56,314 bases of DNA from positions 1 to 56,314 of the forward strand of contig JANQDZ010000003.1 of the NCBI GenBank assembly GCA_028278645.1, in the 5' to 3' direction. Numbering within the stretch: the stretch's first letter is position 1; every line of letters begins with the position of its first letter. The stretch comes from Longimicrobiales bacterium (GTDB taxonomy: Bacteria; Gemmatimonadota; Gemmatimonadetes; Longimicrobiales; Gaopeijiaceae). The notes beneath the pieces are model-generated. The model was not told the DNA's origin and searched no databases. It worked only from the letters and a program-made list of their open reading frames with translations. Shown here in pieces: positions 48,376 to 52,623 of this stretch. Made by a program: the position numbers and the translations under genes.

Positions 48376-49791
48376 TCAACGGCGGCGGAAAGCGTCCTCC
48401 GCAATACGCTGGAGGAAGGTTCGGGCGCCCTGTCTTTCTCCCTCGGAAACCGCCCAGTCGTAGGAGAAGAGGATGACGCCGCGGGTCCCCAGACTGTTCG
48501 CGATGCGGATCTTGTCTACCGACCCCCGGTAGGTGTTCTGGTAGATCCCCACACCGGCCCACACGCGATCCCTGCCGGCCGCTTCGATGGCATCGCCGAT
48601 CTGGCCCTCGTAGATGTCGTTATCGGCGGTGTAGGCCATGGGGGCCACGGCATCCAGGATCCCCGACGCCAGCCAGTCCCGCCAGTCCTGGAACCGGTGC
48701 AGATAGGCGTCTTCCGCGTTCGGGATCACGGCGGCGGAAACCGTGAGGTCAGGCCTCCGTTTCTTCACGCCGTGGTAGATGCGTTCCACCAACCCGGTGA
48801 TCTGGGACCGACGGAATTCACCCCAGGCCCCGGCAAGGGAATCCGCGTAGGCCAAGGGGTCGGTTCGTATGGCTCGATCCAAGCTGGCCCGTCGGGCCGG
48901 GGAGATACGGGGGGTAACCCACTCCCTGAAACGGTCCAGGGCTTCCCTTGAATAGTCGAAATCCCCGTTCGGGTATCGGATGTAATCAAAGTGAAGGCCG
49001 TCCAACTCGTAGGACTCCACCAGGTCCATCCACACCGAGTAGAGATGTTCCTTCACCTCCGGGTGGGACGGGGCGGAGTAGAGACCCTCGATCCGATCCG
49101 TGTTCTGCTGCGAGTACCGAAGGATGGTCTCGGCGTACCTAGGCGCCCAGGGGTCCAAGTCGTAGAGGTCCCGAGCCAGGGTCCGTGGTACGGCAAGGAG
49201 GTCCGGCCGGGCTCGGATGAGGTGGGTAGGGTCGGTTGGCAGTCCGCCCATCCCACCCACCAGGTGGCCGTTCACCCATGCGTGAACGCCTATCCCTCTC
49301 TGGTGGGCCTCGTCGATGACCACCGCCAGAGGATCGAAGGTGGCGCTCACGTCCAGAACCGTGGCCGGCTTCGGCTCCCAGCGGCTCTCATAGTACGCGT
49401 CCCCCCTGCCCCTGACCTGAACCACCAGGGTGTTGAATCCCGAATCGGCCGCCCTTTCCACCATGACCCGAATGGAGTCGGGGTGGGTAAGGGTGGTCCT
49501 CACCACCCACAGGGCCCGCACAACAGCCGGCAGGGGAAGAGCCCGATAGCTGGACACCGCCCCGGCGGAAGTTTTCCAGGCGGTGTTCCTCGTGGCTCGG
49601 CCTGCCGGCTCCCGCACCCCGGCTGTGGAATCGGCCGTGGGCGGTTGAACCCTCGGGGTTTCCTCCCGGCCGGGCCGGGTGGTGTCCCCGGCCCGGGGGT
49701 TGGACGGGCCCGGCACCGGCGCGGATGGATCGACGACGGTGCAGCCGGGGAGGATGAGGGCTGCGGCGAGGAGGAGTGACGAGCACCTCAT
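48376..49791 (-). CDS. GHL10-family glycosyl hydrolase-like lipoprotein
   Basis: A 471-residue protein with a lipoprotein signal: hydrophobic helix then LPGC (Cys at about residue 16). A low-complexity Pro/Thr/Arg linker (about 17-75) precedes a TIM-barrel GHL10 domain (DUF187/YngK type). Its landmarks are VRALWVVRTTLTHPDSIRVM, FNTLVVQVRGRGDAYYES, AHQRGIGVHAWVNGHLVG, HFDYIRYPNGDFDYS and APMAYTADNDIYEGQIGDAI. Family members are presumed peptidoglycan or polysaccharide glycosidases, including an uncharacterised Glu/Asp site. The Cys and linker suggest attachment to a membrane in the periplasm. ATG 49791 overlaps the tadA stop by four bases. Confidence 0.85.
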   Translation of the reverse strand: MRCSSLLLAAALILPGCTVVDPSAPVPGPSNPRAGDTTRPGREETPRVQPPTADSTAGVREPAGRATRNTAWKTSAGAVSSYRALPLPAVVRALWVVRTTLTHPDSIRVMVERAADSGFNTLVVQVRGRGDAYYESRWEPKPATVLDVSATFDPLAVVIDEAHQRGIGVHAWVNGHLVGGMGGLPTDPTHLIRARPDLLAVPRTLARDLYDLDPWAPRYAETILRYSQQNTDRIEGLYSAPSHPEVKEHLYSVWMDLVESYELDGLHFDYIRYPNGDFDYSREALDRFREWVTPRISPARRASLDRAIRTDPLAYADSLAGAWGEFRRSQITGLVERIYHGVKKRRPDLTVSAAVIPNAEDAYLHRFQDWRDWLASGILDAVAPMAYTADNDIYEGQIGDAIEAAGRDRVWAGVGIYQNTYRGSVDKIRIANSLGTRGVILFSYDWAVSEGERQGARTFLQRIAEDAFRRR

Positions 49792-50366
49792 CGTTTCGCC
49801 CTGAAGAAGGTCTTCAGCAGGGCAGCGGACCTTTCAGCTGAAACGCCTCCGACTACCTCCGCCCGATGATTCAACCGGGAGTCCTGGAGGAGGTTTCCCA
49901 GACTCTCAGCCATGCCGGCTTTGGGATCCTTAGCGCCGTACACCACCCTTGGCACCCGGGCCAGGACGATGGCCCCACAGCAGTGGGCGCAGGGTTCCAG
50001 GGTGCAATACAGGGTGGTCTCCTCCAGGCGCCAGTCACCTTGAAGGGCGGCGGCCTTACGAATAGCCACGGCTTCGGCGTGGGCCGTGGGATCGGAGTTC
50101 GTCACTGTGAGGTTGTGGGCTTCCGCCAACAGCTCCCCGTCTTTCACCACCACCGCACCCACCGGAACCTCCCCCCGGAGAGCCGCCAGCTGGGCCTGCT
50201 CCAGCGCTCTCGCCATCCAGAGGCGGTCGGACGCAGGAAGGCTATCCGACGCACGCTGGCTCCCGGACGTACGCTGACTCCCGGACGCACCTGGGGATCC
50301 GGACGCTCTTCGCCCTGCGACGTTATCGGCTGAGAGACCGGGAGAGTAGTGTCCCGGGGCCTGCAC
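49788..50366 (-). CDS. tadA: tRNA-specific adenosine deaminase
   Basis: A 192-residue cytidine-deaminase-fold enzyme that makes inosine-34 in tRNA-Arg(ACG). The zinc site is TAHAEAVAI with His96 and Glu98, and TLEPCAHC with Cys126 and Cys129. The first ~45 residues (GTG start at 50366) are a Ser/Gly/Asp/Arg low-complexity extension encoded by an 18-base repeat, and the family-like part begins near residue 48. ATG 50216 (Met51) is an alternative that gives a protein close to family length, but neither start has a clear ribosome-binding site. It lies five bases after the lexA-like gene stop. Confidence 0.9.
   Translation of the reverse strand: MQAPGHYSPGLSADNVAGRRASGSPGASGSQRTSGSQRASDSLPASDRLWMARALEQAQLAALRGEVPVGAVVVKDGELLAEAHNLTVTNSDPTAHAEAVAIRKAAALQGDWRLEETTLYCTLEPCAHCCGAIVLARVPRVVYGAKDPKAGMAESLGNLLQDSRLNHRAEVVGGVSAERSAALLKTFFRAKR
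50229..50308. repeat. 18-base repeats in the tadA N-terminus
   Basis: About four imperfect 18-base copies of a unit like GGCTCCCGGACGCACGCT occur in frame in the start of tadA. They encode hexapeptide steps such as ASGSQR, TSGSQR and ASDSLP. They are likely recent slippage in a non-essential extension. Confidence 0.6.
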
Positions 50367-50371
50367 GCAGG

Positions 50372-51025
50372 TCAGTGGGCGATGGCGGTGACGGCAGCCG
50401 GGAGATGATCCATGCGCCGATACATGCCGGTGACTTTGCCCAACAGAACGAGAGGGGTGGAGTCGTCCACCACCGTGGGACTCCCCTTCCCTGCGAGAGG
50501 ATGCAGCTGTACGGCCTGGCCGTTTCTGGAGAACCGGTAGTACTCCGCGGGTCCCTCCACTTTGGCCGCCACGATGGCTCCGTCCTGGAGGTCCACCAAG
50601 CTGGCAGGCTCCATGAGGATGTAGTCACCCTCGATGCAACCCAGAGGGGCCAGGTCACCAGAGCTGGCTTGTACGAAGTAGGCGCCCTTTTCCCCTGCCC
50701 AGCGGCGATCCAGGGTCAGAAAGCTGTCCGCACGGTCTGCCCTGGGGCCTTTTCCGTCTTCCGGCAGGCGGGAGAAACACGGGACGGACACCCCGGGGGC
50801 GTCCAGGTCCATGCCGAGGATCTTCACGCCACGGGAGCGGGAAGGATCCCGCTCCAGAAAACCCTTGTCAGCTAGGGCTTGCAGGTGCTCGGAAACCGTT
50901 TTGGTACTCTTGATCCCGAACCGTTCCCCGATCTCACGGATGGAAGGCTGATAGGTGTTCGACCGAAGGTAGGACACCATGTAGTCGAGGATTTTTTCTT
51001 CGATTTCCGTCAGATTCGGGAGCAT
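50372..51025 (-). CDS. LexA-like repressor with a degenerate self-cleavage domain
   Basis: A 217-residue protein with an N-terminal winged helix of LexA type (SIREIGERFGIKSTKTVSEH, about 28-47) and a C-terminal S24-peptidase-like domain. The helix fits the SOS repressor family. In the C-terminal domain the canonical nucleophile position after SGD is Leu125 (SGDL at 122-125), the general-base Lys position in AxxKRF is Tyr163 (AEYYRF), and no Ala-Gly cleavage pair is present in the linker. It thus looks unable to cut itself. ATG 51025 has GGAG six bases upstream; a longer TTG start at 51070 is less likely. It is not safe to call it a SOS regulator. Confidence 0.85.
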   Translation of the reverse strand: MLPNLTEIEEKILDYMVSYLRSNTYQPSIREIGERFGIKSTKTVSEHLQALADKGFLERDPSRSRGVKILGMDLDAPGVSVPCFSRLPEDGKGPRADRADSFLTLDRRWAGEKGAYFVQASSGDLAPLGCIEGDYILMEPASLVDLQDGAIVAAKVEGPAEYYRFSRNGQAVQLHPLAGKGSPTVVDDSTPLVLLGKVTGMYRRMDHLPAAVTAIAH

Positions 51026-51100
51026 CCAGATCTCCAAGTGCCTGAATGTCTCGCCCAGAAAAAGGGCCAAGAAACACGATCAATTAAGGGACGGATCGCT

Positions 51101-51130
51101 ATCCTAATGTGCCTTATTCGCCGGTGTCAA
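51101..51130 (-). promoter_or_regulatory. sigma-70-like promoter of the lexA-like gene
   Basis: On the minus strand TTGACA (51130-51125) and TAGGAT (51106-51101) are 18 bases apart, matching the -35 and -10 consensus well; the start of the lexA-like gene is about 76 bases downstream of the -10. An imperfect inverted repeat TCAAGAAAG/CTTTTCTTCGA around 51128-51147 overlaps the -35 and could be the protein's own operator. Confidence 0.6.
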
Positions 51131-51159: not shown

Positions 51160-52623
51160 TTACTCGGACGGAAGCTCGCCCGAGCGCAATATGTTTACGG
51201 CCCGCCGGATACGATTTCGCGACCGTTCCTTCCCCAAAAGCACGAGGACGTCAAAGATGCCGGGGCTGGCGGACGATCCGGTCAAGGCCAAGCGCAGCGG
51301 TTGGAAGAGCTTTCCTGCCCCGATCTCCATCTCCTCGACCAAACCTCGCGAAAACTCCTCCAATCTCTCCTGATCCCAGTCGATATCGCCAATTTCTGCG
51401 TCAAGGCGAGCGAGCCGTTCGGCCGTGCCTTCGGGATCCTTCGCCCACTGCTTTTTGACCGCCTTGGGATCGTATTCCAACTCCTCGGAGAAATAGGGTT
51501 CGGCCTGGTCGAGCAAGTCTTCCACAGTTCGGGCCCGCACCTTCAGGAGGTCCACAAGGAGGTAGAGGTCGATAGCCTCATCGCCGCCGGTTGCAGGGCC
51601 CTCCGGAAGAAGACCTTTCTCCGTAAGCCGCCATTTCACCTGCTCGACCAGCTCCTTCACGGGCTTGGCAGCCAGGTGCTGGCCGTTCAGCCATTCGAGC
51701 TTCTTGAAGTCGAACACGGAGCTCTTTTTAAGGACCCTCTCCAGGGAGAAGACATCAACGAGCTCGTCCCGGCCGAATACCTCCCGGTCGTCCCCAGGAG
51801 ACCAACCCAACAGGGCCAGGAAGTTGAACATGGCCTCCGGGAGAATCCCGTCTTTTTCGTAATCTCCGACCGCGGTGGCTCCGTGGCGCTTGGACAATCT
51901 TTTCCCGTCCGGGCCCAGGATCAGTGGCACATGGGCAAAAGACGGTACCGGATTCCCCAGGGCATCGTGCAGGAGGACCTGCTTCGGAGTATTCGAGAGG
52001 TGGTCGTCCCCGCGCAGGACGAGGGTGATGCCCATCTCGGCGTCGTCGGACACCACGGCCAGGTTGTATGTCGGCGTCCCGTTGCTCCGCAGAATCACCA
52101 GGTCATCGATCTCTTCGTTCCTGAATCGTGACTGGCCATGGACCCCATCCTTCCAGACCGTCTCCCCATCCGGCACTCGGAAGCGGATGGCACAAGTCTC
52201 GCCCTTCTCGAGACGGGCCTCGACCTCCTCGGGAGTCATGGCGTCGGCCCGCTCACGGGCCCGGCGGTTCCTCTTCCCCGTGGCCACCTCCTCTTCCCGG
52301 TCCTTGGCGGCCTGATCTGGAGTTGAGAAGTCCCTATAGGCCTGACCCGACTCCAGGAGCGAGAGGGCCGCTTCCCTGTGGCGATCCAAACCCTGGCTCT
52401 GGAAATACGGCCCCTCGTCCCAGCTCACCCCCAACCACTCCATCCCATGAAGGATCGCCTGAGTGTGCTCTTCGCTCGAGCGCGCCTGGTCGGTATCCTC
52501 GATGCGGAGGACCAACACCCCGCCTTCCTTCCTGGCCAGGAGCCAGTTGAAGAGGGCCGTTCGGGCGCCTCCCACATGGAGATAGCCGGTGGGGGACGGA
52601 GCAAAACGAACACGAAGGGTCAT
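51160..52623 (-). CDS. gltX: glutamyl-tRNA synthetase
   Basis: A 487-residue class I synthetase. The HIGH motif is HVGG in RFAPSPTGYLHVGGARTAL, and the KMSKS motif is GKRLSKRHGATAVGDY. IRFRVPDGETVW and the alpha-helical anticodon-binding C-terminal half are present. The cysteine pairs of the zinc-binding GluRS forms are not present, as in many bacteria. Whether it is discriminating cannot be told, but the presence of a GlnRS next door suggests it needs to make only Glu-tRNA(Glu). Its ATG is one base from the glnS stop. It continues to a point about 90 bases before the lexA-like promoter. Confidence 0.95.
   Translation of the reverse strand: MTLRVRFAPSPTGYLHVGGARTALFNWLLARKEGGVLVLRIEDTDQARSSEEHTQAILHGMEWLGVSWDEGPYFQSQGLDRHREAALSLLESGQAYRDFSTPDQAAKDREEEVATGKRNRRARERADAMTPEEVEARLEKGETCAIRFRVPDGETVWKDGVHGQSRFRNEEIDDLVILRSNGTPTYNLAVVSDDAEMGITLVLRGDDHLSNTPKQVLLHDALGNPVPSFAHVPLILGPDGKRLSKRHGATAVGDYEKDGILPEAMFNFLALLGWSPGDDREVFGRDELVDVFSLERVLKKSSVFDFKKLEWLNGQHLAAKPVKELVEQVKWRLTEKGLLPEGPATGGDEAIDLYLLVDLLKVRARTVEDLLDQAEPYFSEELEYDPKAVKKQWAKDPEGTAERLARLDAEIGDIDWDQERLEEFSRGLVEEMEIGAGKLFQPLRLALTGSSASPGIFDVLVLLGKERSRNRIRRAVNILRSGELPSE

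Follow-up and report, generated by a model that had tools for sequence, protein, structure and literature searches.

The lexA2 locus

The window analyzed here, a stretch of 56,314 nucleotides, carries on its reverse strand a gene of the LexA family that we term ‘lexA2’ (50372..51025, (-)). LexA is the textbook repressor switched by self-cleavage. Judged by its open reading frame (ORF), by profile matches and by an AlphaFold model, lexA2 encodes a LexA paralogue that is predicted to be non-cleavable. The ORF starts with the ATG at 51025, ends with the TGA at 50372-50374, and specifies 217 residues, beginning MLPNLTEIEEK. It is preceded by gltX (51160..52623, (-)), its constant upstream neighbor, and followed by the gene for a tadA-like deaminase (49788..50366, (-)), the true start of which probably lies inside the ORF; both were identified by Pfam and by synteny. 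Beyond these lies a gene, also assigned by Pfam, for a GHL10 glycosidase-like lipoprotein (48376..49791, (-)). Its ORF overlaps that of tadA by 4 bp, and it is a frequent, not constant, neighbor in part of family f1, to which the window belongs. The original prediction placed lexA2 at the head of a tadA operon. The deaminase gene does lie downstream in f1–f3, but none was found next to lexA2 in f5, and the gene that is conserved beside it is gltX, upstream. Order is nearly constant as gltX-lexA2-tadA in f1–f3, and as gltX-lexA2 in f5. Three f2 genomes (L052, L053 and L054) have a tRNA-Gln (CTG) directly upstream of lexA2; in L053, only a few bases separate its end from the start codon.

The lexA2 promoter, TTGACACCGGCGAATAAGGCACATTAGGATA (51100..51130, (-)), comprises a -35 hexamer, TTGACA, an 18-bp spacer and a -10 hexamer, TAGGAT. 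The TTGACA-N18-TAGGAT arrangement is conserved in many f1 genomes, together with the flanks TTTC, GCACAT and AGC, and it bears out the strong promoter originally predicted.

The lexA2 protein and its missing cleavage apparatus

The protein is, as predicted, a LexA homologue. It matches the TIGR00498 model at 118.7 bits (cut-off 110.95), and contains a winged-helix DNA-binding domain (LexA_DNA_bind, PF01726, 70.7 bits; residues 4-66; 50828..51016, (-)), near-invariant among lexA2 paralogues, and an S24/LexA C-terminal domain devoid of the peptidase residues (Peptidase_S24, PF00717, 26.1 bits; residues 78-206; 50408..50794, (-)). Its closest relatives in the PDB are LexA from Thermotoga and E. 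coli. The AlphaFold model (mean pLDDT 85) adopts the LexA fold over both domains. Its top structural match, which covers both, is 3jsp, a LexA-DNA complex (Z 14.0, VIA-align), and model residues 80-204 superimpose on LexA C-domains with Z of about 11-13 and rmsd of about 3. Both marks of the family, an N-terminal wHTH and a C-terminal S24/LexA fold, are present.

Cleavage of LexA requires Ser119, Lys156 and the Ala84-Gly85 bond, as cited in two papers (PMC7567884, PMC3091678). The lexA2 protein has neither the Ser nucleophile nor the Lys base, and neither an Ala-Gly nor a Cys-Gly bond. In an alignment with LexA proteins of the same phylum, Glu89-Asp90 (50756..50761, (-)) occupies the scissile Ala84-Gly85 position, Asp124 (50654..50656, (-)) that of the nucleophile and Tyr163 (50537..50539, (-)) that of the general base. 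The original prediction had named all three losses, correctly for the cut site and for Tyr163, but it placed the lost nucleophile at Leu125, one residue off. Asp124 belongs to the Ser119 column because it runs ungapped to the downstream G-D motif (S119-x9-D129 in E. coli; D124-x9-D134 in the window protein), and because relatives of lexA2 read RGDEL where canonical LexA has xGDSM; Leu125 falls in the Met120 column. The Ser-Lys dyad occurs in none of 86 distinct f1 copies, one of which has a lone Ser, and the Lys156 column is aromatic or His in most of them. With dyad and Ala-Gly bond absent, and by analogy with the biochemistry of LexA, the protein would be incapable of self-cleavage upon RecA filament formation, and these losses favor the LexA-derived, non-cleaving repressor that had been proposed.

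Distribution and repeated loss

Almost all named relatives of lexA2 carry the label Gemmatimonadota, a phylum whose members live in soil and water; several are Longimicrobiales. Among 150 genomes drawn from the phylum, strong matches to lexA2 occur in most f1 genomes, in all those drawn from f2 and f3, and in most from f5; f4 and f6–f9 have, as a rule, canonical LexA only. By inference, f3 corresponds to Longimicrobiaceae and f5 to Gemmatimonadaceae. Some genomes do without the gene (G010, G016 and genus g62 of f5 among them), and it is therefore not essential to the lineage. One assembly titled ‘Gammaproteobacteria bacterium’ (L150) carries the Gemmatimonadota gltX-lexA2-tadA block, and is probably mislabelled. 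No paper on the LexA of Longimicrobiales, or on a LexA linked to gltX and tadA, was found in an open-access library of papers, which is weak evidence of absence.

With the catalytic columns left out of the tree, lexA2 is monophyletic with respect to canonical LexA (SH-aLRT 100), and f1, f2 and f5 each form one clade. A common clade and shared gltX synteny mark lexA2 as an orthologous group, an old paralogous lineage of Gemmatimonadota. Ser and Lys are kept in all f3 copies and in 8 of 20 f5 copies, and f3 and part of f5 carry the complete apparatus; f2 copies are mixed, none with the complete set, and f1 has no dyad at all. Of 67 aligned rows, 18 retain both dyad and Ala-Gly, 47 have neither, and 2 are discordant. 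The best tree requires no fewer than five changes in the state of the dyad; several of its inner branches are weakly supported, making five a rough count of the losses, and branches that are well supported yield only three independent pairs. Because the apparatus is intact in canonical LexA, in f3 and on several branches of f5, these changes are much more probably losses than gains. The cleavage apparatus, then, has been lost in f1 and in several other lineages, with cut site, Ser and Lys going together. The cleavage-less state is not unique to the window protein; it is common to the whole of f1, and has arisen repeatedly.

Selection and DNA recognition

Both domains of lexA2 are under purifying selection. 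Identity between DNA-binding domains averages 0.82 for pairs within f1 and 0.75 between f1 and f3, and that between C-terminal domains averages 0.40 within f1. In 19 close f1 pairs, dN/dS is 0-0.15 for the DNA-binding domain and about 0.05-0.34 for the C-terminal domain, which keeps the fold residues D106, G133, D134, P140, G196 and R203. All aligned copies keep a full-length frame. Pseudogenization and chance are ruled out by these C-terminal values and by absence of the dyad from 86/86 f1 copies: lexA2 is a real, conserved and non-trivial case.

The recognition helix of lexA2 is unlike that of canonical LexA, reading STKTVSEHL in place of SLATVHEHL. The distinctive residues, Lys42-Ser45 (50891..50902, (-)), include K42 and V44, which are invariant among 47 aligned lexA2 orthologues. 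DNA-binding domains of lexA2 and canonical LexA are, on average, 37% identical. The canonical LexA encoded alongside it carries a different recognition helix, so that, to judge from sequence, the lexA2 protein probably reads another operator.

Searches at lexA2 itself brought no such operator to light. Spaced-dyad counts upstream of the gene in f1, f2, f3 and f5 revealed no recognizable dyad or repeat, and in an alignment of f3 upstream regions and an information profile of 56 f1 promoters only the -35 and -10 hexamers stood out. The promoter motif CATTAGGATAG, searched for exactly in 29 genomes, occurs once in each of seven, always at lexA2, and disclosed no target gene; an exact-match search is a narrow test, and a degenerate operator is compatible with this result. 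Where the -35 block, TTTCTTGACAC, occurs away from lexA2, the second block is absent and the site looks unrelated.

A canonical LexA alongside lexA2

The genome (G000; 4.9 Mb in 103 contigs) encodes one RecA and, in addition to lexA2, a canonical LexA (C60:14560-15165; L001) in which VAAG, GDSM and TVKRL, every element of cleavage, are present. Bin contamination as the source of a second lexA is ruled out, for both genes occur on one single contig in the relatives G006, G024 and G027. Promoters of canonical lexA (L001; L055-L074) contain paired TTCGG-N6-TTCGG direct repeats with an 11-bp period, a layout that resembles the GTTC-N7-GTTC of Alphaproteobacteria. TTCGG-N6-TTCGG occurs 41 times genome-wide, compared with 14 occurrences of the reversed control. 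A near match read by eye, TTCGCTTTCTCTTCGG, precedes recA, and repeats are found near frames that resemble, by eye, MraZ and SbcD (L190, L207 and L214); the MraZ-like, SbcD-like and recA sites form a candidate SOS regulon. Given its intact cleavage elements, the repeats at its own gene and the near match at recA, canonical LexA most likely keeps the SOS function in this genome. The region upstream of lexA2 has no TTCGG-N6-TTCGG box.

Gained residues

Two residues have been gained. Cys83 (50777..50779, (-)) occurs in 85/86 f1 copies, and is Leu in 21/21 canonical LexAs. His217 (50375..50377, (-)), the last residue before the stop, is likewise present in 85/86; either His codon may encode it (CAC in 75, CAT in 10), and the copies between them use each of the three stop codons. 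The tail that follows Arg203 is 13-14 residues long in 82/86 copies. The sole f1 copy without the C-terminal His, L038 (G013), has a long basic C-terminal extension. Both structure models give the tail low confidence, and they therefore offer no basis for proposing a site. One f3 protein, L145, combines both residues with an intact dyad, for which reason Cys83 and the C-terminal His may have preceded the loss of cleavage. No phylogenetic association between dyad loss and either residue could be demonstrated with only three independent pairs.

Interpretation

We think it likely that the lexA2 product is a dimeric transcription factor of the LexA type, no longer part of the RecA/SOS circuit. The gene is an ancient, gltX-linked paralogue standing beside canonical LexA, and its cleavage apparatus was lost in the window's family. 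Fold and conservation suggest that the protein still dimerizes and binds DNA, at a site unlike that of canonical LexA, with the C-terminal domain acting as a plain dimerization module and perhaps as a sensor. Repression might then be set by the level of the protein, by another signal, or by none. The product, in short, is probably a repressor that has departed from the SOS damage response.

The original prediction allowed that Ser121 or Ser122, both present in the window protein, might pair with another Lys to form an alternative active site. Neither serine is conserved among the 86 f1 relatives, where position 121 is mostly Arg, Pro or Gly and position 122 mostly Gly, Ala or Arg; they are not kept even within the genus (L009 reads RAEEL), the domain has no conserved Lys, and a cut site is absent. 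The alignment excludes such a site as a property of the family, and we find it scarcely credible for the window protein. The domain might, instead, be merely decaying, if DNA binding alone matters, as its low identity and the diverse residues at the former Ser position could imply. Constraint on its substitutions, retention of its fold residues, the full-length frame of all aligned copies and the appearance of near-invariant Cys83 and His217 all speak against decay, which we regard as very improbable.

It is also conceivable that lexA2 remains in the SOS response indirectly, by occupying canonical operators or by heterodimerizing with canonical LexA, and so blunts or postpones SOS gene expression in the role of a non-inducible co-repressor. 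Two LexA proteins do occur together, and the fold of the C-terminal domain is still that of LexA; but the recognition helices differ at contact-type positions, the DNA-binding domains have diverged widely, and lexA2 lacks the TTCGG box, and we judge this unlikely. More deserving of attention, although doubtful, is that inactivation proceeds through Cys83 and the His217 tail, either as a redox or metal switch or with the His-ended tail as a signal for a protease. The original prediction had allowed for another inducer, and these two residues are candidates for its point of action. The near-invariance of both residues in f1, their absence from canonical LexA and the fixed length of the tail are suggestive, since these are the outstanding conserved gains of an otherwise fast-evolving domain. 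Against this, the tail is poorly modelled, association with dyad loss could not be shown, and both residues are also seen in certain f3 proteins that retain the dyad, L145 having the two together, which means that they do not strictly stand in for cleavage. Departure from the SOS circuit remains the reading that we prefer; that this escape recurred with the DNA-binding half frozen, and in one family brought in a new Cys83 and C-terminal His switch (redox, metal or regulated proteolysis), we offer tentatively, as a proposal that could well be wrong.

Within the lexA2 group, the cleavage machinery ranges from intact through partly degraded to wholly lost, and canonical LexA, still present, serves as an internal control. 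The series allows tests of how a LexA becomes detached from the SOS response, of whether a new signal comes before or after the loss, and of how operator specificity shifts after duplication. It carries a warning for annotation, too: because the NCBIfam lexA equivalog model accepts the lexA2 protein, what appears to be a non-cleavable protein will be named ‘LexA repressor’ in annotated genomes.

Comparison with known systems

In domain order, wHTH and S24 fold, length, and G-D/beta-strand framework, lexA2 is like canonical LexA, both that of E. coli and that of its own genome (G000 C60). It differs in lacking Ala-Gly, Ser and Lys, in its recognition helix, in having gained Cys83 and a C-terminal His, and in its gltX neighborhood. 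The f3 orthologues, from the same taxonomic order (e.g. L037 and L145), share the gltX-lexA2-tadA arrangement and the recognition helix with the window gene; they differ in possessing the full cleavage apparatus (AAG, GDSM and TVKRY). The LexA2 of Leptospira interrogans is also the product of a second lexA gene with a diverged sequence, and has an operator of its own (PMC3789691). Unlike lexA2, it retains Ser130/Lys166 and a Cys-Gly cut site, is depleted after UV, and is encoded in a prophage-like region (PMC3789691).

A non-cleavable LexA, as such, is already known, and lexA2 is a further form of it. Excerpts of two papers describe the LexA of Synechocystis sp. PCC 6803 as having Gly-Gly rather than Ala-Gly, and Asp for Ser119, and yet repressing genes; it is a regulator outside SOS, for which control by phosphorylation has been suggested (PMC3091678, PMC7567884). 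The two proteins are alike in having no Ala-Gly site and an Asp in place of the catalytic Ser. They differ in that the Synechocystis protein is the LexA studied as a regulator in that strain, with no loss of Lys described in the excerpts, whereas lexA2 is a paralogue beside a canonical LexA, has lost Lys as well, and belongs to a group in which the loss is repeated across many genera.
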